NCBI RefSeq assembly: GCF_002269345.1
Contig: NZ_CP022889.1
Span: 2,460,501 to 2,524,500, forward strand
Source of the DNA: Tsuneonella mangrovi
GTDB taxonomy: Bacteria; Pseudomonadota; Alphaproteobacteria; Sphingomonadales; Sphingomonadaceae
Length of the DNA: 64,000 nucleotides
Direction: 5' to 3'
Within the stretch, counting starts at the first letter, position 1. Every line of letters starts with the position of its first letter. The position numbers and the translations under genes are program-made. This document shows, piece after piece, positions 5,606-19,330 of the stretch. The notes beneath the pieces are model-generated. The model worked only from the letters and a program-made list of their open reading frames with translations. It searched no databases and was not told the origin of the DNA.

Positions 5606-7135
5606 ATGATGGCTCGCTGGCCAAGCGAACAGGTGAGGACGAAGGCGCTGGTGATCGCACCGGTCGTCGTGCTGAGCCTGTTGTTTACCGGCCTCGTGGC
5701 TGGCATCCTCATAAAGACAGACGCGGTCACCCGCGTTTCGCACGGCGAGTTGCTCGCCGCCGCGATGGTCTATGCCCTGGCGGTCTATGTTGTCCTCCGC
5801 GTGGGACATGCGGCAGTCCAGAGCCTTGAAAAAATCGGCCTGACCGACAGCCTTGCCGGGGTTCCCAACCGCCGGGCGCTGCACATCGACGCAGCGCGTC
5901 CGCACGCCCAGTCGCGCGAGATGGCGCTCGCGCTGATCGACCTCGACGGCTTCAAGATGGTCAACGACCATTATGGCCACAGCGTCGGCGACCGCGTGAT
6001 CAAGGAATGCGGCCGCATCCTGGCGGAACTGTGCGGCAAAGAAGCGACTTCGTATCGCCTCGGCGGCGATGAGTTTGCGGTGATGGTCAGGGGGCCGATC
6101 GCCAAGAACATCCTCGAGAGCATTTGCCGGAACCTGCTCAACCAGTTGGCATCGCCGATCATGATCGACGATCGCACGATCATTCTTGGTGCGAGCATCG
6201 GGCTGTCGCACAGCACCGGCAGCGATGGGCTGAGTTCTTCGGAGCTGCTTCGCCGCGCGGACGTGGCGATGTACGTATCCAAGACTTCCGGCAAGATGCG
6301 CTGCACCTGGTTCAGCGCCGAATTCGATTGTCGCCGCGAAGAAGCACGCCAGATCGAATCTGACCTCCGCAAGGCGCTTGATGCCGATCAGTTCCGGGTC
6401 AAGTACCAGCCACTGGTCGACGCCAAGAGCGGCGAGATCGTCGTGGTCGAGGCGCTGTTGCGCTGGGAGCGACCCGACGGGATTCCGATCGGGCCGGACG
6501 TTTTTATTCCAATCGCGGAGGAGTCGGGGCTGATCGGTGCGATCGGCCTGTGGGTCTTGCGCCAGGCGTGCATCGATGCGCTCGCATGGGAAGGCATCAA
6601 GCTTTCGGTTAACGTCTCTGCCGCCCAGCTGCGCGATCCCGATTTCCCGTTCCAGCTCGGCATGATCCTCGAGGAAACCGGATTTCCTGCGAACCGCCTC
6701 GAGCTCGAAGTGACCGAGACCTATCTCGTGGTGGATCCGAGTGTCGCGGCGCGCAGCTTCGACATGATCAAGCAGTTCGGCGTCGGCGTAGTGCTCGACG
6801 ATTTCGGGACCGGCTACGCCTCGATCGGATTCCTCCGCAAGTTCCAGTTCGGCAAGCTCAAGCTCGACCGTTCGCTGATCGTCGAAGCGGCGACCGACGA
6901 AAGCTCGCGCGCGATGGTCGTTTCGAGCATCGCGGTGGCCCGGGCAATGAACATGGATGTCACTGCCGAAGGGGTGGAGACCGAAGCACAGCTGGAACTC
7001 GTTCGGGTTGCCGGCTGCGACCAGATCCAGGGCTGGTATTTCTACAAGGCGATCGACGCCGCCGAAGTCACCGAACAACTGGCATTGGCCGGGCGTCGGG
7101 ACGATGACGGAACTATTGCAATTGGAGCTGCATGA
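5606..7135 (+). CDS. Membrane GGDEF-EAL protein (c-di-GMP synthesis/breakdown)
   Basis: 509-residue protein with two N-terminal membrane helices (about residues 10-60) and almost no extra-cytoplasmic loop. A GGDEF domain follows (intact motif in [10 protein letters not shown], about residue 153, preceded by [10 protein letters not shown]), then an EAL domain (intact VEALLRWER about 282, DDFGTG later). Both active sites look complete, so it may make or degrade cyclic-di-GMP; no RxxD inhibitory site is seen just before GGDEF. Start chosen at ATG 5606 because GGGGA lies 9 bases upstream; a TTG at 5585 is also in frame. It ends inside the receptor gene's start (ATGA). Confidence 0.9.
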
Positions 7136-8847
7136 TGGACATGTCGGGTAAATTCGTTCCTGCTGATGGCGCAGATGCGGCCAGCATCTCGGACAAGCTG
7201 ATACGGTTTTCCGGCCTTCGTGGCGGGACGATCGAGCAGCGGCTCGGGCGAATTCTCAAGCATTTCTTCATCACCGCGCTGCTGGTGGGGATTACCACCA
7301 TGGGCTGGCTCGCGTTCTCCGACTACCAGTTCCGTGTCGCGACCGACCTTGCGCACACCGCCGACCAGCTGGTTCAGGTCAACAGCGACATGATGGTTGC
7401 CGATCAGCACTACCGCGATTTCGTCAAGACCGGCGACGATACGGCGCTTGCCGATATGACGAGCGCCGTTTCCGCAGCGAGCAAGGACGCGCTCGTCCTC
7501 CAGAAGGCAGTTGGTCCGGAGGGGGTCATCCCGGCCGCCGATACGGCAAACCTCGTCGCAGTGACCGGCGATTTCGCGCGCCAGTTGGCTGCCGGCAGGA
7601 CCGATCCGGCGACGCTCGAAGCCGGGATCGGCAAGACCAGAGAAGCGAGCGTTGCCATCCAGGGCATCGCGCAAACGATGCTCAAGACGCAGGTTGCCAA
7701 GGGTCTCGAGGGGATCGGCGCATTCCGCTACCTCGCGATCCCGTTGATCCTGTGGGCGTTGATCGCGATCGCCTACAGCAGGGCGGCGGTCCGTGTTGTC
7801 CAGTCGGACATCGTCAAGCCGCTGGCCGAAGTCACACCGATCTGGGCGAAGCTGATCAACCGCGAGCCGGTCGATCATATCCCCTATACCGACTTCGACG
7901 ACGAGATTGGCGACCAGACCCGGGCGCAGGAGTTCTTCAAGACCGGGGTCGAGGAGTACGACGACATTCGTGCCAAGCGCGGCGAGCAGCGCAAGAAGCA
8001 CGACGAACAGATCAAGGACCTGTCCGACAAGTTCGAACGCACCGTCGGCGACGTAGTTAGCGGCGTGGCTGCAGCAGCAAGCCAGCTACAGACGACCGCC
8101 GCCTCGATGGCGAGCACCGCGGAACAGTCCTCGTTGCAGACCAGCGAAGTCTCGCGCAGCTTGGCCGAAGCATCGGCCGGGGTGACTGCCGCAGCTGCAG
8201 CGTGCGACGAGTTCGCGATGTCGATCGGCGAGATCAGCCGCCAGGCAGCGAATTCGGCCGAACTGGCACGCACTGCTACGTCGGCTGCAGCAGACGCCGA
8301 TTCGACGATTTCGGCACTGTCTGACCTGGCCGCTCAGGTCGGGAGGATCGTCGAGCTGATTTCCACGATCGCCAAGCGTACCAACCTGCTGGCACTCAAC
8401 GCCTCTATCGAAGCGGCGCGCGGCGGCGAGGCAGGGCGCGGGTTTGCGGTCGTCGCGTCCGAGGTCAAGGACCTTGCGACGCAGACCGGCAAGGCCACCG
8501 ATGAGGTGTCCGCCCAGATCAAGGCGATCCAGGACACCACCGGGGCGAGCGTCGATGCACTGCGCTCGATCGCCGGACAGATCAAGCAGCTGGAAACCAC
8601 TGCGGTCTCGATCGCTGCCGCGGTGGATCAGCAGTCGGTCGCCGGACAGGACCTTGCGCGCAGCATCGATCGCGCCGCGCGCAGCACCGAAGACGTATCG
8701 GCCAATATCTCGATGGTCCGCGAAACCTCGCTGGCCACCGGCAGCGCGGCGAACCAGGTGTTGACGTCTTCGACCGAGCTCGAACAGCAGGCTGGCACAC
8801 TGCGCGCGCAGGTTGGCGAATTCCTCGCCCACGTGCGCACTTCCTGA
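7132..8847 (+). CDS. Methyl-accepting chemotaxis protein
   Basis: 571-residue chemoreceptor. A helix at about 42-62 and another near 200-220 enclose a periplasmic helical domain of about 140 residues, followed by a HAMP-like linker and a long coiled-coil signalling domain. The highly conserved hairpin tip that contacts CheA and CheW is present ([20 protein letters not shown]). The ligand domain is not one I can name. The start overlaps the GGDEF/EAL stop; a second ATG at 7135 is better spaced from GGAG (7124-7127). It is the last gene of the chemosensory block and is followed by a terminator. Confidence 0.93.
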
Positions 8848-8875
8848 CGGACGACAAGCCCGAACCGGGAAACGA

Positions 8876-8910
8876 AAAGCCCGCCTGCTCAAATCGAGCG
8901 GGCGGGCTTT
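8876..8910 (+). terminator. Rho-independent terminator of the chemosensory operon
   Basis: AAAGCCCGCC pairs with GGCGGGCTTT, with further pairing of CTGCTC with GAGCGG around an AAAT loop. It lies 28 bases after the receptor stop codon and touches the left border of the integrated island at 8912. Confidence 0.9.
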
Positions 8911-8911
8911 C

Positions 8912-8965
8912 GAGATGGTGGGCGCGACAGGGATTGAACCTGTGACCCCACCCGTGTGAAGGGTG
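8912..8965. repeat. Left attachment-site copy (tRNA-Val 3' remnant)
   Basis: 54 bp identical to 19252-19305. It contains the T arm, acceptor 3' strand and part of the anticodon stem of tRNA-Val on the minus strand, then diverges at GGAAAGC where a real tRNA would continue into the D arm. It is therefore a leftover of integration and not a gene. Confidence 0.92.
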
Positions 8966-9046
8966 GGAAAGCGGGCATCAGCGGCTTTACGCGGACGATA
9001 AAATCCAATAAAAACAGTTATGGGCGTTCAGACGTGTCCGTCCATG

Positions 9047-9068
9047 TTTTTCATGTTTTTTTCATGGA
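9047..9068. repeat. Left inner direct repeat, candidate integrase arm-type site
   Basis: A 22-bp run containing two TTTCATG-like words around seven Ts is identical to 19200-19221 and in the same orientation. It lies 81 bp inside the left attachment site and just before the integrase start. Arm-binding sites of tyrosine integrases are typically short repeats placed like this on both sides of the core, so this role is likely but inferred. Confidence 0.6.
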
Positions 9069-9086
9069 TTTTGGAGTGCCCCGAAA

Positions 9087-10256
9087 ATGCCCGATCTGAG
9101 CCGCATTGGAGAGCGCGAAAAACTGAGGCCAAAGGCGGGGGATGAGCCGCACTGGCAACGCCTGCGCCAAGGGGTCTATCTCGGCTATCGGCCATCGAAG
9201 AAGAAGGCAGGCGGCACATGGTTTGCACGCTTTTATGACGGCGAAACCAATCGCAATTCTCGCAAGCGGCTGGGCGATTATGGCACTCTAACGGGGCACG
9301 ACGTTTTCAAGCAGGCCAAGGCCGACGCGGAAGGCTGGGCCGAGACTGTCGAAAGCGGGGGCGAGCGCGCCTGCGAGATGGTGACGGTCAAGGATGCCTG
9401 CGAAGCCTATCTGGAGCAAAAGCCCGGATCGATTGCCGAAGGGGTCTTTCGCCGCCACGTCTATTCCGATCCAATTTCCAAGGTGAAGCTCGACAAATTG
9501 AGGCGGCACCAATTGAAGGCGTGGCGTAAACGTCTGGAACAGGCACCGGCCATGCTCACACGGAGCAAGAATGGGGAGAAGCGCTGGAAGGAACGAGCCA
9601 AATCGACCGTCAATCGCGACATGGTGCCGCTACGCGCCGCGCTGAGCATGGTCCTAAAGTCCGGTGCGCCAAATACGGATGCGGCATGGCAAGAGGCGCT
9701 TCGCCCTTTCAAAGGAGCTGACAAGCGCCGCGAGCTGTATCTCGACCGGGATGAACGCCGCAAGTTGATCGATGCGACTTGCGAGGAAGCGCGGCCTTTT
9801 GTGAAGGCGCTCTGCCTTTTGCCGCTTCGCCCCGGCGCTCTGGCGGGTTTGACAGTGCGCGACTTCGATAAACGCACCCGCTCGCTCACAATTGGCAAGG
9901 ACAAGAATGGCAATCCGCGCCAGATTTCCTTGCCGCAAGTCATTGCCGATTTCTTTGCCGATCAGGTGAAGGACAAACTGCCAGCCGCGCCGATATTCGC
10001 GCGCGCTGGCGGTGAGGCATGGAACAAAGACGCTTGGAAATACCCGATCAAGGAAGCGGTGAAGGCGGCTGGTCTGCCCGGTGCTGCGTCAGCCTATACG
10101 CTGCGCCATAGCGTTATCACGGATTTGATCCGCGCGCGTCTGCCGATCCTGACTGTGGCGCAGCTATCTGGCACGAGCGTTGCAATGATCGAAAGCCACT
10201 ACGGCCACCTTGTGCGCGATGATGCAGAAGAGGCACTGGCGAGTATCGCCATCTAG
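9087..10256 (+). CDS. Tyrosine-type site-specific integrase of the island
   Basis: 389-residue recombinase expected to integrate and excise the island at tRNA-Val. The N-terminal 100 residues look like an arm-binding domain, then a core-binding helical domain (about 100-205), then the catalytic domain. Catalytic residues visible: Arg248 (PLRPGAL), Lys271, Arg340-His341 (TLRHS) and the nucleophile Tyr372 (SHYGH). The usual first His of the HxxR motif is Tyr337, seen in some integrases. GGAG lies 10 bases before the ATG. It sits immediately inside the left attachment site and reads into the island. Confidence 0.93.
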   Translation: MPDLSRIGEREKLRPKAGDEPHWQRLRQGVYLGYRPSKKKAGGTWFARFYDGETNRNSRKRLGDYGTLTGHDVFKQAKADAEGWAETVESGGERACEMVTVKDACEAYLEQKPGSIAEGVFRRHVYSDPISKVKLDKLRRHQLKAWRKRLEQAPAMLTRSKNGEKRWKERAKSTVNRDMVPLRAALSMVLKSGAPNTDAAWQEALRPFKGADKRRELYLDRDERRKLIDATCEEARPFVKALCLLPLRPGALAGLTVRDFDKRTRSLTIGKDKNGNPRQISLPQVIADFFADQVKDKLPAAPIFARAGGEAWNKDAWKYPIKEAVKAAGLPGAASAYTLRHSVITDLIRARLPILTVAQLSGTSVAMIESHYGHLVRDDAEEALASIAI

Positions 10257-10405: not shown

Positions 10406-11641
10406 TTGAGCGAAGACGAGCCAAATCGAAATCCGTTATTGATCCCGCGCGAAGGCTCTCTGGCGACCGTGCAGAAAACGCTTTTGCGTTTTCGCGAGCA
10501 TCTAATTGAGAACGACATTCAAGCTGGGGAGCCACCGCTCCAGCACAGAGATCAAGACCTTCCGGGGCGAGACTGGCTGCCCGAACCTGAATGGATGAGC
10601 GGCTGGACAGCGTTCGAGATTTTCCAGTTGCAGGAAGAGCCATATGAGTGGCCACCTGCACTGGCTAGGCTTTGCAAAGTAATCTCGGATTACGCAGACG
10701 AAAGCGAGACTGGGCCGAATTTCGCTTTGGCGACACTGCCGCCTAGCCATCCACTGCTTGAGGATTTCCCCACAGGAACACGCGTATGGTTTCGCGCGCT
10801 CTATGAGTTGCTCGTCGTCAAGAATGGCGAAGAGATCGAAGGTTGGGAGAACCTAGTCACCGAGATTTACGAGTGGGTTGGTCCTTGGGACAATCTTCGA
10901 CTTCGCGCCCGAGATGCACTCGAAGAGGCGCTCAGCCATCGTTGGAGCGTTGAGAGGTTTTCGTTACCCGAGACCAAGCAAAACCCCGTTTGGACCTTTC
11001 CAATGGCGCTCACATGGATTGCGACAAGGGACTTTCGTGCGATGGCTAGAATGCCTCTCTTCTGCCAACCAATGAATGATGCTGAAGAAGCAGTGGCAGA
11101 AGGAGGGGTGTGGCAATACGCTACGAAGTCACTTGGATGGTTGCATACCGAGATTTCGTTTGTGCACTGCAAGTGTGGCGCGCTTTCTGATTATCGATTT
11201 GAGTCTTGGCGGCATTGCACCTGCATTTCGGTCGCATGGGAGGAACTTGTCCGTCACATGGGCGGGCTGGGGAGCCACATCCCGGAACTGGTGTTCAATC
11301 TTCAAGAGGGTTGGATTTCGATGACTTGGCCAGATGAGGCGGATGACATTCGCTTTCTTCGCAGTGAGATCATGGAGAAGTGGCCAGCCGTTACGCCGCC
11401 ATCAGAGGCATTGCCAACTGCGCAGCCATCCATTGCTTCCGTCGAGCGCGAGTGTGAGAGGTGGCTTTTGGAAGAGTTTGCCAATGATCCTAAAAAGAAG
11501 CGATCAAAGAGCGACTTTAGAAGCGCTGCGATGGCAAGATTTGGCTCCGGCCTTTCAGAGCGTGGCTTCAACCAAAGAGTTTGGCCAAAACTGGCTCAAA
11601 AGCATGGGCGCGATAGCGCTGGTGCGAAGCGCAAATCATGA
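10406..11641 (+). CDS. Unknown island protein with Cys/His cluster
   Basis: 411 residues, not recognised. The start is a TTG at 10406, supported by GAGGGA about seven bases upstream. The protein is soluble and rich in Trp and acidic residues. Around residues 250-275 a CKCG...HCTC cluster could bind zinc. The last 60 residues (from about VERECERWL) look like a separate Lys/Arg-rich helical domain that could bind DNA. Base composition is clearly lower in G+C than the core genome, which fits recent transfer. It stands alone between the integrase and the excisionase-like gene. No function is proposed; a cargo or defence role would be only a guess from location. Confidence 0.6.
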   Translation: MSEDEPNRNPLLIPREGSLATVQKTLLRFREHLIENDIQAGEPPLQHRDQDLPGRDWLPEPEWMSGWTAFEIFQLQEEPYEWPPALARLCKVISDYADESETGPNFALATLPPSHPLLEDFPTGTRVWFRALYELLVVKNGEEIEGWENLVTEIYEWVGPWDNLRLRARDALEEALSHRWSVERFSLPETKQNPVWTFPMALTWIATRDFRAMARMPLFCQPMNDAEEAVAEGGVWQYATKSLGWLHTEISFVHCKCGALSDYRFESWRHCTCISVAWEELVRHMGGLGSHIPELVFNLQEGWISMTWPDEADDIRFLRSEIMEKWPAVTPPSEALPTAQPSIASVERECERWLLEEFANDPKKKRSKSDFRSAAMARFGSGLSERGFNQRVWPKLAQKHGRDSAGAKRKS

Positions 11642-11750
11642 CGGCGAATTGAATCGCTGATTTTTTTGCGACCGCTATTCGTTCGATTCTTTCGGACCGA
11701 TGTTTCCTGCATCCGCTGGCATTCGCTGGCACTTTGCAGGGAAATATCCG

Positions 11751-11918
11751 ATGGAAAAGCTTCTCGTTTCGATCCTTAATGCTGCCGATGCGCTGAGTGT
11801 GGGGCGCACCACCGTTTACGAGCTTATGCGCACCGGCCAGCTCGACACCCGGAAGATGGGGCGGCGGCGGCTGATCACGGCGGAGTCGCTCCGGCGGCTG
11901 GTCGAAAAGCAGGACTGA
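11751..11918 (+). CDS. Small excisionase-family HTH protein
   Basis: 55 residues from an ATG at 11751 with AGGGA nine bases upstream; a longer reading from 11700 has no support. The sequence SILNAADALSVGRTTVYELM followed by a GRRRLI wing and a short helix is the MerR-like winged helix of excisionases and recombination directionality factors, which bend attachment-site DNA and steer integrases toward excision. Position 12 bases before the next HTH gene suggests an operon with it. It could instead be a plain transcription regulator. Confidence 0.75.
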   Translation: MEKLLVSILNAADALSVGRTTVYELMRTGQLDTRKMGRRRLITAESLRRLVEKQD

Positions 11919-11929
11919 CGGGCGAAGCG

Positions 11930-12403
11930 ATGGGCCGGATCAATCCGCGCCTTGCCAAGCTGCACCGGTCTTTCAGCGTCTTCGAGCTGGCCGATCTGCT
12001 GGGGGTGCATCGCAACACGGTGCGCCAATGGATCAGGGAAGGCCTGCCCGTGCTCGACGGGGCGAAACCCATCCTGATCATTGGCAGCGAATTTCAGGCG
12101 TGGTGGGCGAAGCGCACAAACGCCAGGAAGCGCCCGTGCCAGCCGGGGCAGATGTATTGCTTCAAATGCCGGGAGCCGAAAGCAGCTGCGCTGGGCATGG
12201 TCGAATACACCCCTGCCAATACCGTCACGGGCAACCTGAAAGCCCTATGCGAGACGTGCGGCACCCTGATGCACCAGAATGCCCGGCAGGCCGATATTGC
12301 CGCCAGAATGCCCGGACTGGCCGTGCAAATCACGCAGGCACCTTCAAGCATAGATGCGCGGGCGCATCCTTCCCCAAACTGTGACAATCCGAAGGGAGCT
12401 TGA
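11930..12403 (+). CDS. HTH and zinc-ribbon protein paired with the second recombinase
   Basis: 157 residues. The first 65 form a winged-helix DNA-binding domain (VFELADLLGVHRNTVRQWIR). A treble of Cys residues follows: CFKCRE near residue 80 and CETCG near 107, spaced as a zinc ribbon, then a short disordered tail. It stops four bases before the recombinase gene, whose Shine-Dalgarno AAGGGAG lies inside this gene. The tight pairing suggests an accessory DNA-binding protein for that recombinase; this role is inferred from context. Confidence 0.7.
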   Translation: MGRINPRLAKLHRSFSVFELADLLGVHRNTVRQWIREGLPVLDGAKPILIIGSEFQAWWAKRTNARKRPCQPGQMYCFKCREPKAAALGMVEYTPANTVTGNLKALCETCGTLMHQNARQADIAARMPGLAVQITQAPSSIDARAHPSPNCDNPKGA

Positions 12404-12406
12404 ACA

Positions 12407-13513
12407 ATGGCAAGACACAATGCTGCGAACACCCGGATCAAGCGGGAATACTTCCACTATCTGAAGGAAGCGCGGCGGCGCGATGATGCATCGATCGATC
12501 CCATCGCAAAGGCGCTTGCCCGCTTCGAAGAGGCGACAGGGTATAAGGACTTCAGGAAGTTCCACCGGGAGCAGGGCGTTGCCTTCAAGCGGCGGCTTGA
12601 CACTGAAAAGAACGTGCGCACCGGCAAGCCCCTGTCTCGCGCGACGGTTCACTCGACCCTTTCGGCTTTGCGCGAATTCTTCATCTGGCTCGCAGGCCAG
12701 CCGGGTTACAAGAGCAAGATTGCCTATGCCGACGCGGACTATTTCAACCTTTCCGACAAGGACGTGAGGATTGCCAAGGCGACTCGCGAAAAGCCGGTGC
12801 CAACGATAGAACAGGTGCATCACGTGCTGGCGACCATGCCAGCCGGGACGGATATTGAGCTGCGCAACCGGGCGCTTATGGCGCTGGCGCTGCTTACCGG
12901 CGCGCGCGCGGCCGCCTTGGCGACCCTGAAGTTCAAACATATCGAACTGGAGCAGGGCTGCATCCATCAGGACGCGCGTGACGTGCGCACGAAGGCCAGC
13001 AAGACCTTCACCACGTGGTTTTACCCCGTGGGCGGCGATGCGCTGCAAATCGTGACTGACTGGTGCGAACACCTGCACACCCGGCTGCATTGGGGCAAAG
13101 ATGATCCGTTGTTTCCTAAGACCCTGGTGGGACTGGGCGAGCAACGCGGCTTTCAGGCCATCGGCCTCGCCCGCGAACACTGGAGCGGCACCGGGCCGAT
13201 CCGCGCAATTTACCGGGACGCCTTCGCGGCGGCAGGCCTACCCTACTTTAACCCGCACTGTTTCCGCGACGCGCTGGTGCAGCTTGGCGAGCGACTTTGC
13301 ACGACACCAGAGCAATTTAAGGCATGGTCGCAGAATATCGGGCACGAGAGGGTGCTCACGACCCTAACGAGCTATGGCAAGGTGCCAGCCGCGCGGCAGG
13401 CGGAATTGATAAGTGGGCTGGGACAAGCGCAATCCGGACCGGCTTTCGATCCCGCGCTAATCGCCCAATTGATGGCGGCCTTACAGAAGGTGAACGGAGG
13501 CAGTCTGGCCTAA
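12407..13513 (+). CDS. Second tyrosine recombinase
   Basis: 368 residues with an N-terminal SAM-like core-binding domain (to about 125) and a catalytic domain with all key residues: Arg167 (LTGARAA), Lys199, His284-x-x-Arg287 (HCFRD), His313 (IGHER) and Tyr323 (TSYGK). It is not closely similar to the island integrase at 9087 in the parts I compared, so it is not a simple duplicate. It may resolve dimers, move a nested element, or act together with the first integrase. It forms a unit with the HTH/zinc-ribbon gene before it. Confidence 0.9.
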   Translation: MARHNAANTRIKREYFHYLKEARRRDDASIDPIAKALARFEEATGYKDFRKFHREQGVAFKRRLDTEKNVRTGKPLSRATVHSTLSALREFFIWLAGQPGYKSKIAYADADYFNLSDKDVRIAKATREKPVPTIEQVHHVLATMPAGTDIELRNRALMALALLTGARAAALATLKFKHIELEQGCIHQDARDVRTKASKTFTTWFYPVGGDALQIVTDWCEHLHTRLHWGKDDPLFPKTLVGLGEQRGFQAIGLAREHWSGTGPIRAIYRDAFAAAGLPYFNPHCFRDALVQLGERLCTTPEQFKAWSQNIGHERVLTTLTSYGKVPAARQAELISGLGQAQSGPAFDPALIAQLMAALQKVNGGSLA

Positions 13514-13522
13514 TCTGCCAAT

Positions 13523-14302
13523 TCAAAGCAAACCGATCAAATGTTCGGCCCAATGCGCAAGCGTCGAACCTGCTTCTGTCAATTCGCTCCAGAATTTTTC
13601 AGGGTCCTTGGCTATTGCCTCGCCCATAACCTTCCCAGCTCCCCCGATAGCGCCGAGAGCAAGCGCGCCCAGACCGGCTTTGATCCAGCCACGGATTTTG
13701 TCTGCCAGCCGCTTAAATGCGCTTTCGGCCTTTTGGATTACTTCCGCGTCCGCAGCATTAGCCCTGTCCGGCTTAGCCAACTCACCCCGAACTTCGGCGA
13801 CGCTTGCTTCTGCTGCGACTAGGTCTTCATCATCAGGATCAAGCCGAAACTCATCGGGCGGGCCGTTGTGCCCCATTTGAGGAGCGCGATCCCGCCAGTA
13901 GGCGATGTGCTGTTCTATCCGGTCCAGTTGCTCCCCAAGGGCTTCCAGCCTTTCCTCTAGCGATGGGTGTGGGGCGTCATCATCGGGCAGGTCATCCGGC
14001 TGGATTCGAATCCCAGCCGGTGCCCAATCAAACAGCCCGTCAGACTGAATTTCATCTACCGCCCGCTCAATCAGCTCTTCACTCGCATCTGGGAACGCAT
14101 CCCAAAGCTCTACTTGCGCGTCATAAGGCCCGCCCCAAATGTAAATGTAGCCGCCCTCTGCACTTTCGTATGGCGTCTCCATAGCCGGGTCTTCGAAGTT
14201 GGCGAGAAACCATTCGACCATGGCTTCAACTGCCCCGTCTGCATCTTCCCAGTCGATCTCTGACGGTTCTGACGTGGGTTTCAGCTCAAGACCGGAACTC
14301 AT
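13523..14302 (-). CDS. Unknown acidic protein with GHNGPP motif and hydrophobic C-terminal segment
   Basis: 259 residues from an ATG at 14302 (AAGGA 12 bases upstream; a TTG at 14314 has no spacing). The N-terminal half is strongly acidic; a central coiled-coil-like stretch (EERLEALGEQLDRIEQHIAY) leads to the short motif MGHNGPPDE, which I recall from many alphaproteobacterial hypothetical proteins. A further acidic helix region is followed by a Gly/Ala-rich hydrophobic segment (GLGALALGAIGGAGKVMGEA) near residue 215 that could insert in a membrane. Divergent from the nuclease gene at 14467 across a 164-bp region, so it may be co-regulated with the restriction module. Function unknown. Confidence 0.6.
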   Translation of the reverse strand: MSSGLELKPTSEPSEIDWEDADGAVEAMVEWFLANFEDPAMETPYESAEGGYIYIWGGPYDAQVELWDAFPDASEELIERAVDEIQSDGLFDWAPAGIRIQPDDLPDDDAPHPSLEERLEALGEQLDRIEQHIAYWRDRAPQMGHNGPPDEFRLDPDDEDLVAAEASVAEVRGELAKPDRANAADAEVIQKAESAFKRLADKIRGWIKAGLGALALGAIGGAGKVMGEAIAKDPEKFWSELTEAGSTLAHWAEHLIGLL

Positions 14303-14358
14303 ATTGGACAGCAATCCTTTTCAAGAGTCGTGCTCTACGTGAAGATGATTGTTTTACA

Positions 14359-14466: not shown

Positions 14467-15255
14467 ATGAAGCTCAATAGGAGCCAGATCCAAGCCAAGG
14501 CGCGAGAAATCCTTGAGGCCGAAACCGGCGGCATTAGATGGGGCGCTCTCATGTCTCGCATTCATGCCGATGCCCCCGAAACACCGCAAAATTCCATACA
14601 TGGCGCGCTCCAGAACCTTTTCGTGATCTCCAATGACATCGTGAAGGTGGCGCGGGGCACCTATCAGCTCGCCAAGTATGTTGCCGCCGAAGATGCGGAT
14701 GCCAGCGCGCAACAAGCGGAAGCGGACGGGGTCAAAGTCTTGGCCGCGATCCCTGGAGCGGATGCGCTCACGGAGCAGGTCTTCTACGACAGCTTCGCGG
14801 AATGGCTGGAAGAGAACGACGAGGCGACACAGGCGGCGGCGCTGGGCGGTTCAAGCCTTGGCGGCAAGTGGGGCACCCCTGACGTCATTGGCGTGCTCAA
14901 GCCCCGCGCGCAGGACATCTTCAAATTCGAACCGCAGATTGTCACCGCCGAAATCAAGGCGGTGCCCAATCAACCTGTGGTCGCCTTTGGACAGGCGGTC
15001 GCTTACAGGCTGTTTTCGCACAAGAGCTATATCGTGGTGCCCAATTCCACGAGCAGCGACGATATGAACCGCCTGAAGTCGCTTTGCAGCATCCACGGGG
15101 TGGGGCTGGTGACCTTCACCTTGAACAAGGATCAGCCGGACTACGCCGTGGTCGTGCTTCCCGTGAATGCCGCGCCCGATATGTTCTACGTCAATAATAT
15201 GCTGGAGCGGCTGAAGGCCAGTGAACCGAAGTTGCTCAACAAGCTCTTCTCCTAG
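14467..15255 (+). CDS. HARE-HTH-like plus PD-(D/E)XK nuclease-fold protein
   Basis: 262 residues. Residues 1-70 form a winged-helix domain of the HARE-HTH kind (WGALMSRIHADAPETPQNSI through GTYQLA). Residues 100-250 carry a PD-(D/E)XK nuclease core: Asp139 in GTPDVIG, Glu162-x-Lys164 in VTAEIKA, and the helix FGQAVAYRLF with a conserved Gln. HARE-HTH domains are known to be fused to or beside restriction enzymes and are suggested to sense modified DNA. It precedes the type IIG-like gene by 141 bases on the same strand, so the two probably act together in restriction of foreign DNA. The domain names are my reading, with no search done. Confidence 0.75.
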   Translation: MKLNRSQIQAKAREILEAETGGIRWGALMSRIHADAPETPQNSIHGALQNLFVISNDIVKVARGTYQLAKYVAAEDADASAQQAEADGVKVLAAIPGADALTEQVFYDSFAEWLEENDEATQAAALGGSSLGGKWGTPDVIGVLKPRAQDIFKFEPQIVTAEIKAVPNQPVVAFGQAVAYRLFSHKSYIVVPNSTSSDDMNRLKSLCSIHGVGLVTFTLNKDQPDYAVVVLPVNAAPDMFYVNNMLERLKASEPKLLNKLFS

Positions 15256-15396
15256 TCCAAGCTCACCTCTTGGCGTTGGGCGGCTGGCGCTGCTATGCCA
15301 GCCTCATGCGACTGACCACGTTGGCGAAGTCTCTGTGTCGGCGATGTTGTTGTATTAGGCGGCTCCTAGGATTTAGCTGCATCAAAAGGGGGCTAG

Positions 15397-18300
15397 GTGG
15401 CGCAGGCAGTTAAGCAAGCAGTAAGCGCATTTGACGAAGCAATTCGAACGATACGCGAAACTAAGAAAGGTCAGGAAGCGGCCATGTACGGCCCGCTCCG
15501 CGACATATTTTGCGATGTTTTGGGTTATCCACGTAGTTCGGTTCACATTGATATTGCCGGAGAGGCCGGAAGGCCGGACGTAACTTGCCGAGCGCCATCC
15601 GGCATCATGGACCGTAATGGCAAATCGCTTGATATCGACTGGATGGTTGTCGAGGCGAAGGACGAACACGACGCATTCTCGACGGCTGGCAAGCGAGAAG
15701 CGATCTTCGCGCAAAAGGCGAAATACATCCGCCCGGACACGGCATGGTTTGTCATGGCCGACCCGAAGGTCATCGTCGCCCGTCCGGCGATGAATTCCAC
15801 CCATGACAGCGCGAACGATATCGTTTTTGCACTGGACTCAGCGGCGGACGAAGCTGGGTTCCGGACCACCTTTGCTCGGTTGTCTTATGGCGTGGCTGGC
15901 GTACCCCAGCGGTTGAAGGCGTTCCGGGAAGGCGACACCAGCCTGATAGCCACTGAAAAGCTGACGATCCCGGACAAGGCCACCAAGAGGCAGGAAAATC
16001 AGGTCACTGTTGCCCGTCGCAACTTCTATGAGACGCTGCGCAGCACCACCGGCCATTTGCAAGAGTCTACCCTTGGAACGCTTCAATCGGTCCTCAGCAT
16101 GGCGACCGATGTTTCCGAGGCGTGGAAGGTGTTTGCGGGAAAATACCCCGATGCCGTGTTTGACCCCTACACGCTGACCGTGACGGCAAGGCCCGACAAC
16201 TATGAGTTGGCGATGACCTATGGCGGTGACGTTGCTCGCCTCAATCGCAAGCTGAAAAGGGCTGGTAGCATCGCCCGGCTGGCGCTTGATGGTCTGCCCG
16301 AATTCAAGGCGCGGGTGAACGCCAAGGAGAACAACGCCAAGGAGGAAAGAAAGGTCTTGGAGATGTTCGCGACCGAAACCGCGAACCTCATCCTTGCCCG
16401 TATTCTGTTGATCCGGTTTTTCGAAGATCATGGATTTTTCGGAGTCAATCGCTTCCTCTGCAACGGCGGCGTGGAGGCGTTCCAGAAGCTGCGGGAGAAG
16501 TTTACCTTCGGATACACGCGCCTGCTGAAAATGGCCTATGAGAAGGCTCAGGCGTTGTATGCGGCGGCATTCGATGAAACGGAGCTGGATTGGGTCTTCG
16601 CCACCAATGACGGCAACCTTTCCAACGCAATCGAATGGGCGATGTATCAGCTATCGCGCTACGATTTCACAACGGTCAAAGGCGACATTCTGACGGGCGT
16701 TTACGACCGCTTCCTTGACCGGGAGCAGCGCAAGAAGTTCGGTGAATATTACACTCCTCCTTCAATCGCCCGCTACATCGTTGACCGGCTGGAACTGAAG
16801 CCGGAAGACCGTTTCATGGACCCGGCCTGCGGGAGCGGCACGTTCCTCATCGAACGCTATCAGCAAGTTGTCGGAGAGGATGCCGATCAGGGCCTTGCTA
16901 CCTATGCCGAAGTTGTCGCCGCGCTGGATCGGCTTGCGGGCAACGACCTCAACACCTTCTCCGCCGTCTTGGCTCAAATCCAAATCCTCTGGCACGTCCT
17001 CAGCTTCAAGGATGACTTGATAGTTGCCGAGGAATTCCCGGATATTGCGATCAGCGACAAGGCGAACAGCATCATTCGTCCCGGCGTCGAATTTGCCCAG
17101 CATGGGCGCTTTGTTGAACTGGATTGTCCCGAATATGGCGGGATCGGCGGCAACCCGCCCTATGTCCGGCCTGAACGCTCCGGGCCGCTGGACGAAGCGA
17201 CAACCCAATATTTCGAAAGCGATCACGACGGTTGGAAGGGCATTTCCGCCGAAGCCAATCTCTATGCTCTTTTCATCTACCGCGCTCTCGATGGCTGGTG
17301 CCGCCGCCCGAACCAGTGGGGGGAAGGGGCCGGACGGCTAGGCTTCGTGGTTCCGCTCGCCTTGTGCGGGACGAAGGAAAACGGCGAATTGCGTCGCTTG
17401 TTCGGTTCAGAAGGTCGGTGGACGATCAAGGAAATTGTCGATTTGGAAGTTATCTGGCGCAACGTGTTTGACGCCGATGTTCTCCCCATCGTCCTGATTG
17501 CCGAGGCCCGTGCGCCCAGGTTGCCGCTTGACCCCAAATTTCTGGACAAGTCGGAACCCCTGCCGGATCGGAAGGCCCTGCGTAACCAAGTCCGCGCCGC
17601 TCGTTTGCAACCGTGGATTGATGCACGTTTGGCGAAGGCCACCCCTGCCAACGCTGCGTCATGGCAAAGCCTGTCAGATAGGAACCGGACGCGGTGGGAA
17701 CCGGATCAGGTCATCATCAAGCTGGCGGATAAAAGCTGCATTGATTTCGGTGATGGCACTAAACGCCCCACCTTCGATCTTGCTGGCATCCCCGGCTCGC
17801 ATCTTGATTATGCCGACCTTTTCACCCCGGATGGTCGCATTGTTACCCGGATCACCCCCGAACGGCGGACGATCATAAACAAGCTGCGGGCCAATCCGCA
17901 GATGTCATCGGCCTTTCAGGAATATTGGTACAAAAAGAAGGGCGAGGGGCGCGGATCAGTCAGCCTTGATGCTCCGAAGCTGAACACAATCATGTGGGAA
18001 AAGCGGTCCATGTGCGGGGGCGGCCTAGCTTTCCGTGGAAAGAAGGCCACTGCAAAGTCCGGCAATGGGGTGGATGTTTACAAGGGCGAAAACATCATTG
18101 CCACGGCGTTGACGGGTTCGCCTCAAGATCAGGATATCGACATTTCCAAAGCCAGCGACATGGGGATTTTCCGACTAGGCAAGATACTTCCCAAACGCTG
18201 TTATGCGGTGGCGCAAATCACAACTTGCCCGAATGCTGTCCCGTTCGATCCGGCCAAGCTCGTTTTCACTAACACAGCGACGATCTTTGGCCCGCGCGAC

Positions 18301-19116
18301 GGGTTGGTAGAGGTGCCCTTTGACCTAATGTTCGTATCGCGCATCTACCGCTATTTTTATGCGCTGAACTGCCGAATGTCGTATCTCAACATGAACCGTA
18401 GCCACGTCTATCCGACGAACTTGCGGCTGCTTCCTTGGAACGAGGCCATCGTCGGCCAGTCCGAGGCATTGGAGGCGTTGCGCGGCGATCTTGTCAGCGC
18501 CTGCGAAAATCATTTCCGCACCGAAGCCGCCATGTTTGCGGCGCTCGATCATTTGCCGCTCCAGCCATTTCGCGAGGTCGTCAAGGACGCGGTGAAAAAG
18601 ACGGGCAACAAGGTCGAATGGTCCGAGAGCCTTAACAAGGGGACCGAGGCAATCGAACTTGCCCCCGGTTGCAAACCCGCCGTGGAAGGGGATGGCTGGC
18701 ACCTCCAGATTTCCGAATATCTGATCGATTGGGTCAAGGTGCCGGACGAAGCGGCTGCCCTTGGTTTGGCGACCGCTCTTTCAGCCCGTGCCGGAACGTC
18801 AAAGAACATGGTGGACCGGGCAACCATTCTCGATTTGCCCATCCCGCCCGATGCCGAGACGCGTGATAAGTTCGATGCCATCGTGAAGCAATATCGCGAG
18901 TCCGATCACGCCAGCGCGATTGATGCGGTGGTGGACAATATCGACGCCCTCATTGGACCCGCCCTTGGCCTAAGTGCGGATGATATCGCCTCTATCCGGT
19001 CCGACATGACGGACGATCCTTTCCTTCGGAACATCACGCCCCGCTGGCCCTCTACCGAAACCCGCATTCACGGCTACCGGACGGGGCTGGATAGCTCTGA
19101 CCGCTACAAGGCCTAG
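15397..19116 (+). CDS. Type IIG-like fused restriction nuclease and N6-adenine methyltransferase
   Basis: 1239 residues from a GTG at 15397 preceded by AAAAGGGGG. The N-terminus is a PD-(D/E)XK nuclease (GRPD ending at Asp61, VVEAKDE with Glu86-x-Lys88). A helical connector leads to a gamma-class adenine methyltransferase with motif I DPACGSGTF at about 475 and the catalytic NPPY at 586-589. The C-terminal 450 residues resemble a target-recognition region. Such single-chain enzymes cut and methylate DNA by themselves. The preceding HTH/PD-(D/E)XK gene is an unusual partner. It is the last gene of the island before the right attachment site. Confidence 0.88.
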   Translation: MAQAVKQAVSAFDEAIRTIRETKKGQEAAMYGPLRDIFCDVLGYPRSSVHIDIAGEAGRPDVTCRAPSGIMDRNGKSLDIDWMVVEAKDEHDAFSTAGKREAIFAQKAKYIRPDTAWFVMADPKVIVARPAMNSTHDSANDIVFALDSAADEAGFRTTFARLSYGVAGVPQRLKAFREGDTSLIATEKLTIPDKATKRQENQVTVARRNFYETLRSTTGHLQESTLGTLQSVLSMATDVSEAWKVFAGKYPDAVFDPYTLTVTARPDNYELAMTYGGDVARLNRKLKRAGSIARLALDGLPEFKARVNAKENNAKEERKVLEMFATETANLILARILLIRFFEDHGFFGVNRFLCNGGVEAFQKLREKFTFGYTRLLKMAYEKAQALYAAAFDETELDWVFATNDGNLSNAIEWAMYQLSRYDFTTVKGDILTGVYDRFLDREQRKKFGEYYTPPSIARYIVDRLELKPEDRFMDPACGSGTFLIERYQQVVGEDADQGLATYAEVVAALDRLAGNDLNTFSAVLAQIQILWHVLSFKDDLIVAEEFPDIAISDKANSIIRPGVEFAQHGRFVELDCPEYGGIGGNPPYVRPERSGPLDEATTQYFESDHDGWKGISAEANLYALFIYRALDGWCRRPNQWGEGAGRLGFVVPLALCGTKENGELRRLFGSEGRWTIKEIVDLEVIWRNVFDADVLPIVLIAEARAPRLPLDPKFLDKSEPLPDRKALRNQVRAARLQPWIDARLAKATPANAASWQSLSDRNRTRWEPDQVIIKLADKSCIDFGDGTKRPTFDLAGIPGSHLDYADLFTPDGRIVTRITPERRTIINKLRANPQMSSAFQEYWYKKKGEGRGSVSLDAPKLNTIMWEKRSMCGGGLAFRGKKATAKSGNGVDVYKGENIIATALTGSPQDQDIDISKASDMGIFRLGKILPKRCYAVAQITTCPNAVPFDPAKLVFTNTATIFGPRDGLVEVPFDLMFVSRIYRYFYALNCRMSYLNMNRSHVYPTNLRLLPWNEAIVGQSEALEALRGDLVSACENHFRTEAAMFAALDHLPLQPFREVVKDAVKKTGNKVEWSESLNKGTEAIELAPGCKPAVEGDGWHLQISEYLIDWVKVPDEAAALGLATALSARAGTSKNMVDRATILDLPIPPDAETRDKFDAIVKQYRESDHASAIDAVVDNIDALIGPALGLSADDIASIRSDMTDDPFLRNITPRWPSTETRIHGYRTGLDSSDRYKA

Positions 19117-19199: not shown

Positions 19200-19221
19200 T
19201 TTTTCATGTTTTTTTCATGGA
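19200..19221. repeat. Right inner direct repeat, candidate integrase arm-type site
   Basis: Identical over 22 bp and in the same orientation to 9047-9068, lying 30 bp inside the right attachment site. The matched placement at both island ends supports a role in integrase or accessory-factor binding. The rest of the 135-bp stretch between the methyltransferase stop and the attachment site shows no gene. Confidence 0.6.
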
Positions 19222-19251: not shown

Positions 19252-19305
19252 GAGATGGTGGGCGCGACAGGGATTGAACCTGTGACCCCACCCGTGTGAA
19301 GGGTG
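19252..19305. repeat. Right attachment-site copy overlapping tRNA-Val
   Basis: 54-bp copy identical to 8912-8965. It forms the 3' two thirds of the intact tRNA-Val, so the element restored the tRNA on integration, as is common for tRNA-targeting tyrosine integrases. Confidence 0.92.
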
Positions 19306-19330
19306 TGCTCTACCGCTGAGCTACGCGCCC
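19256..19330 (-). tRNA. tRNA-Val (anticodon CAC)
   Basis: 75 bases with encoded CCA. The minus strand folds with acceptor GGGCGCG/CGCGCCC, D arm GCTC...GAGC, anticodon stem CACCC/GGGTG with loop TTCACAC giving anticodon CAC (codon GUG), and T arm ACAGG/CCTGT. It is the integration target of the island, whose right border overlaps its 3' 50 bases. Confidence 0.97.

Follow-up and report, generated by a model that had tools for sequence, protein, structure and literature searches.

Restriction-modification (RM) systems are usually regarded as self-contained. HARE-HTH-REase proteins encoded beside Dnd genes have been proposed to discriminate modified DNA (PMC10853773), and the auxiliary or back-up effectors listed for BREX include PD-(D/E)XK nucleases, some of which carry a fused HARE-HTH (PMC12839542). 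The PD-(D/E)XK-wH (winged-helix) type IV enzymes DpnI, FcyTI and Psp4BI read Gm6ATC, and the surveyed winged-helix fusion nucleases rarely neighbour a methyltransferase (MTase; PMC11037411). A self-sufficient type I RM system can carry PrrC, a genetically linked extra nuclease that acts as a second line (PMC2610378). Here, we describe a predicted nuclease, NUC, encoded next to a type IIG-like restriction enzyme (gene 2) in a 64 000-nucleotide stretch of the Tsuneonella mangrovi genome (the window; NZ_CP022889.1, positions 2,460,501 to 2,524,500). NUC resembles the Dnd and BREX nucleases in combining a winged-helix/HTH domain with a PD-(D/E)XK domain beside DNA-modification genes, but its partners are RM systems of types I, II, IIG and III; this likeness is one of description, and the Pfam HARE-HTH domain is not detected in NUC. 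With PrrC/RloC it shares the setting of an extra nuclease beside a self-sufficient RM system, whereas PrrC, a tRNase that has an ABC-type ATPase, is silenced by its RM partner and NUC is a predicted DNase that lacks an ATPase and occurs with several RM types. The DpnI-type enzymes have the same two kinds of domain and a similar size, but the winged helix comes first in NUC, while the name PD-(D/E)XK-wH puts the nuclease first.

Both reading frames of the pair are present where the first-pass annotation had placed them (Table 1), on the same strand and separated by 141 bp, in which a promoter scan found nothing. They lie on an island of ∼10.3 kb that is bounded by perfect 54-bp repeats at a tRNA-Val gene and across which the GC content drops from ∼65% to ∼57%. 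The host genome is a single contig of 2.70 Mb in which gene 2 is the sole gene above the N6_Mtase cut-off; three N6_N4-type MTases are also present, one of which is CcrM-like with a RAMA domain. A T-rich 22-bp perfect direct repeat (9047–9068 and 19200–19221) is found near the 54-bp repeats. The tRNA-Val gene is an integration hotspot: in the sister genomes G001 and G008, copies of the repeat that overlaps it enclose other elements (L088 and L089), that of L088 encoding a 791-residue ATPase-like protein with the P-loop GGNGRGKST (10420–12795). Between an integrase and NUC, the opposite strand of the window encodes a 263-residue protein (13523–14314) with a weak, below-cut-off match to a HEPN/RES N-terminal domain (E = 4e-4).

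Table 1. Features of the window (positions counted from its first letter) and gene orders at NUC loci of other genomes.
Feature	Position or loci	Strand	Remarks
Left 54-bp direct repeat, attachment-site-like	8912..8965	+	Exact copy of 19252-19305
Tyrosine integrase	9087..10256	+	Adjoins left repeat; Pfam Phage_integrase, 1.9e-10
Second tyrosine recombinase of the island	12407..13513	+	Pfam Phage_integrase, 4.7e-08
NUC (gene 1)	14467..15255	+	262 aa, predicted winged-helix PD-(D/E)XK nuclease; ATG start
NUC winged-helix domain, residues 5-68	14479..14670	+	AlphaFold2 model, VIA-align, weak Rok match
NUC PD-(D/E)XK domain, residues 103-262	14773..15252	+	D139, E162, K164, Q176xxxY180
Gene 2, type IIG-like restriction-methylation enzyme	15397..19116	+	1239 aa; GTG start
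Gene 2, putative nuclease motif (D61, E86, K88)	15577..15660	+	Conserved in L029, L008
Gene 2, MTase motif I (DPACGSG, 475) to motif IV (NPPY, 586)	16819..17163	+	
Right 54-bp direct repeat	19252..19305	+	Overlaps tRNA-Val
tRNA-Val, island integration site	19256..19330	-	ARAGORN
Type I R-M-S then NUC	L039, L040, L044, L047, L051, L052		
Type I, YgjP gene between R-M-S and NUC	L041		
Type I variants	L066, L045		L066 NUC first; L045 divergent
Type III Mod-Res then NUC	L021, L042, L043, L034, L049		L034 with Res-like remnant; L049 NUC first
Eco57I-type MTase (1148-1399 aa) then NUC	L007, L035, L036, L038		L038 with UzuA gene between
NUC then EcoRI-type MTase and HNH enzyme	L055		
Stand-alone NUC copies	L030-L033, L037, L053, L057-L064		

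The AlphaFold2 model of NUC (pLDDT 84.6) contains an N-terminal winged helix (residues 5–68) and a PD-(D/E)XK core (residues 103–262). The best structural match of the core is the nuclease domain of PaqCI (Z = 12.6, 3.9 Å over 136 residues with VIA-align), to which it has no detectable sequence relation; PaqCI itself recognizes a specific site with further domains. EndoMS/NucS follows with Z scores of 9.3–9.5. The core has the α/β architecture of the PD-(D/E)XK superfamily with the PD...(D/E)xK elements in register, and the structure search agrees with the fold proposed in the first-pass annotation. Glu162, Lys164, Gln176 and Tyr180 are invariant among 28 relatives and Asp139 is retained in 27 of them, so that the catalytic pair named at the outset (Asp139 and Lys164) is nearly invariant. 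The single exception (L061, 2296–3045, from an Armatimonadetes MAG) has TPY for TPD at the catalytic aspartate and is possibly an inactive copy. NUC, searched alone or with 27 relatives, matched nothing of note in NCBIfam, Pfam or PADLOC (the PADLOC-DB models matched weakly, AbiEi being the best at 0.006), and Foldseek returned no match at E = 0.001 or better. The family has no entry in Pfam, NCBIfam or PADLOC. On the basis of its model and its ExK and QxxxY signature, NUC is predicted to be a DNase that joins a winged helix to a PD-(D/E)XK core. Putative remote relatives of ∼300 residues in other genomes of the order (L019, 8805–9746; L025, 9948–10856) are 25–27% identical to NUC over 113 residues of the nuclease core.

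The winged helix contains a recognition helix with the motif TPxN(S/T) (residues 39–43) and a wing with the motif KxxRGxYxL (residues 60–68). It had been described at first reading as HARE-like. The fold does resemble the HARE domain of the RNA polymerase δ subunit (Z = 7.8–8.3 with VIA-align), but Rok, cullin and other winged helices score equally well, and none of 28 family members matches Pfam HARE-HTH at E = 0.1; HARE identity is therefore not supported by the family search. The family profile weakly matches the DNA-binding domain of Rok (E = 0.011), as do three members individually, and the Rok DNA contacts Lys171 and Arg174 align with Lys60 and Arg63 in the wing of NUC and Thr156 with Ser/Thr43. 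Rok itself is a silencer that lacks a nuclease (PMC6212790).

Gene 2 consists of an N-terminal PD-(D/E)XK region, a γ-class N6-adenine MTase (N6_Mtase match to residues 429–537, E = 5.5e-13) and a C-terminal target-recognition region. Its N-terminal AlphaFold model is too poor to use (pLDDT 53.8) and the nuclease assignment consequently rests on the motif and its conservation, with Asp61, Glu86 and Lys88 kept in an 82% identical relative and in a 36% identical relative of another phylum, the latter on a Nitrosophilus plasmid. With both motif sets in one chain, as had been noted earlier, gene 2 is by its motifs a type IIG-like restriction enzyme. Its closest relative (in genome G188) is identical over residues 10–96 and strongly divergent in the later third, a pattern that a change of recognition domain would be expected to produce. 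Gene 2 is rare: two of 346 genomes of the order contain it, and one of 385 in a sample of the class, this being the genome of the window.

Relatives of NUC were located through two conserved peptides, an approach that misses divergent members and yields loci that are not a random sample. Scanning a single genome for each species yielded 36 NUC loci, to which L007, L021, L066 and L067 were added by other searches; genes were called by codon usage with a simple script, and the types of partner were assigned by Pfam or PADLOC for representatives and by BLAST or motif for the others. The relatives of the window's NUC are mostly from Sphingomonadales. The tree separates a proteobacterial clade of 30 rows from a second clade of nine, which comprises Verrucomicrobia, Planctomycetes, Armatimonadota, Polyangia and one viral contig. 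Within the proteobacterial clade, 20 of the 30 loci have as the closest neighbour of NUC a type I, II, IIG or III RM system or the remains of one (gene orders in Table 1), nine loci have no adjacent RM system and one is cut by a contig end; in the distant phyla nearly all loci are without an adjacent RM system. The Eco57I-type partner MTases score as DrmMI or type IIG with PADLOC. Most NUC and RM genes overlap or lie no more than 35 bp apart on one strand in an operon-like arrangement, the widest same-strand gaps being those of the window and of L066 (333 bp). The type of partner switches at least ten times among the labelled proteobacterial tips of the NUC tree, with the type I loci largely forming one clade. 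In 19 genomes, six N6_Mtase genes were observed within 7 kb of NUC against 0.067 expected by chance; these six loci are phylogenetically close and represent fewer independent gains; the repeated association with different RM types carries more weight as an argument. NUC had no match among 50 697 phage records and occurs on two IMG/VR contigs (L066 and L067).

Several of these neighbourhoods have further features. Stand-alone NUC genes directly behind guaA in Bordetella ansorpii and a Reyranella MAG (L030 and L032) suggest that guaA is an integration site. Other defence-type genes beside NUC include UzuA and Hhe (L038, 9134–16728), Upx (L042, 11014–14775) and a Schlafen AlbA_2 protein (L051, 10844–12403). 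A fused 798-residue reading frame in L048 was judged to be a spurious upstream extension, and a 793-residue antisense frame over NUC in L017/L053, where NUC itself is open, was judged spurious too.

The exact pair in the window is not conserved. Eight of 346 genomes of the order contain NUC, counted as relatives of at least 60% identity (one a fragment), and in just one of them, the window's, gene 2 is present as well. No NUC is located near the gene 2 relatives (in G188 or the distant 36% one), and gene 2 adjoins none of the other NUC genes found. A conserved two-gene system, as originally envisaged, was accordingly rejected, the count of adjacent pairs elsewhere being nil; the accompanying suggestion of an extra, possibly back-up nuclease beside a complete restriction system finds support in the wider family (20 of 30 loci of the clade). 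NUC and gene 2 are probably co-inherited defence genes and not subunits of one machine. Functional coupling between them in this window is plausible, the minimal reading being co-residence on a defence-carrying island. A reading in which the two genes merely share a mobile island and are functionally unconnected is consistent with the uniqueness of the pair, with a gap among the widest of the linked loci and with a NUC subclade that is mostly stand-alone; however, at L007 and L045 members of the same subclade lie next to other RM systems, and across the wider family linkage to such systems has arisen on several occasions, and we consider a complete lack of connection decidedly unlikely.

NUC appears to be independent of its partners. 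FYPD...EYK is retained in the C-termini of type III Res, VPD...ESK in the Eco57I-type MTases other than that of L007, and D...EAK in EcoEI-type HsdR; a role of NUC as the missing nuclease of its partners was thus rejected wherever their sequence was read, L007 aside. At the latter locus, on Novosphingobium plasmid pSA1, the Eco57I-type nuclease part is out of frame with the MTase reading frame (5766–6622 and 6536–9982), and the partner's own nuclease may be broken; NUC is intact. Within one series of type I operons, HsdS is 50–72% identical versus 79–97% for NUC, and when L023, L047 and L052 are compared with L051 the identities are 95–99% for HsdR and HsdM, 53–72% for HsdS and 93–97% for NUC. 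NUC does not co-vary with specificity, and its assignment as the cognate R of the neighbouring MTase, as in a type II pair, was rejected. Elsewhere, it adjoins adenine-type methylases of differing specificity. The nuclease domains of stand-alone and RM-linked copies, with different partners or none, are 92–94% identical although their fourfold-degenerate sites are near saturation (25 of 74 the same between L007 and L032), which indicates long-lasting purifying selection and not recent transfer. The same R-M-S genes (HsdR and HsdM at 80–89%) occur with no NUC in the region in genomes G102 and G348, and the RM system therefore does not require NUC. Since NUC is stable while HsdS diverges, and relatives of the operon lack it, we conclude that NUC is an optional module that is independent of RM specificity.

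Such indifference to partner specificity would also fit a common substrate, for example a double-strand break, and NUC might then process restriction ends or intermediates, or damage from self-restriction, in the manner of a mismatch or end nuclease; the resemblance of the core to EndoMS/NucS (Z = 9.3–9.5) and its QxxxY motif point the same way. NUC has no motor or partner domain, however, its closest fold is that of a type IIS restriction nuclease (PaqCI, Z = 12.6) and it also occurs in stand-alone copies, which together make a DNA-processing role very unlikely.

The stand-alone copies (Table 1) would in turn suit a type IV enzyme that reads a modified phage base and that clusters with RM systems since all are defence genes. 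Winged-helix fusion nucleases of other families read N6-methyladenine, but in 87% of cases these characterized readers lack an MTase within a distance of three genes (PMC11037411), unlike most NUC loci of the proteobacterial clade; the loci of distant phyla mostly stand alone. Likewise, discrimination of modified DNA has been proposed for the HARE-HTH nuclease beside Dnd genes (PMC10853773), whereas that domain is undetected in the NUC family by Pfam. NUC is unlikely to be a general N6-methyladenine cutter because its host has a CcrM-like methylase and its neighbours include many different adenine-type MTases. Nothing observed spoke positively for the punishment of wrongly methylated DNA that had been suggested at first reading. 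For these reasons, we regard a stand-alone type IV activity as rather doubtful.

We give an even chance to the reading in which NUC is a DNA nuclease in its own right, carried along by RM systems as an optional accessory module. Judged from sequence, it is probably an interchangeable second-layer anti-phage DNase. The winged helix would bind invading DNA through a feature unrelated to the recognition sequence of the partner and the PD-(D/E)XK core would then cut the bound DNA, which would add a second layer of defence against phages that escape or block the resident RM enzyme; NUC may be triggered by RM failure or DNA ends, or may instead read a feature of phage DNA. Against this reading stand the nine proteobacterial loci and nearly all loci of the distant phyla without an RM system, so that linkage is common and not essential, and part of it could stem from clustering in defence islands without functional cooperation. 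A broader version, which we consider rather unlikely, is that NUC is a portable DNase add-on of type I, II, IIG and III systems that responds to one universal feature of invader DNA as a general fail-safe; such a feature might be recognized in the minor groove or in AT-rich DNA, as by a Rok-like winged helix, or might be DNA left by failed restriction.

The accessory-module reading fits the idea of auxiliary nucleases that has already been proposed for BREX and Dnd, and the new part is that several kinds of classical RM system are the partners. The protein is small, the family libraries searched contain no entry for it, and operons with and without it form natural pairs. Its importance lies in being a nuclease that RM types of unrelated mechanism gain and lose regardless of their specificity, and whose catalytic half is nearly invariant. 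If this reading is true, classical RM would include a back-up layer that can be exchanged, similar to what has been suggested for BREX and Dnd.
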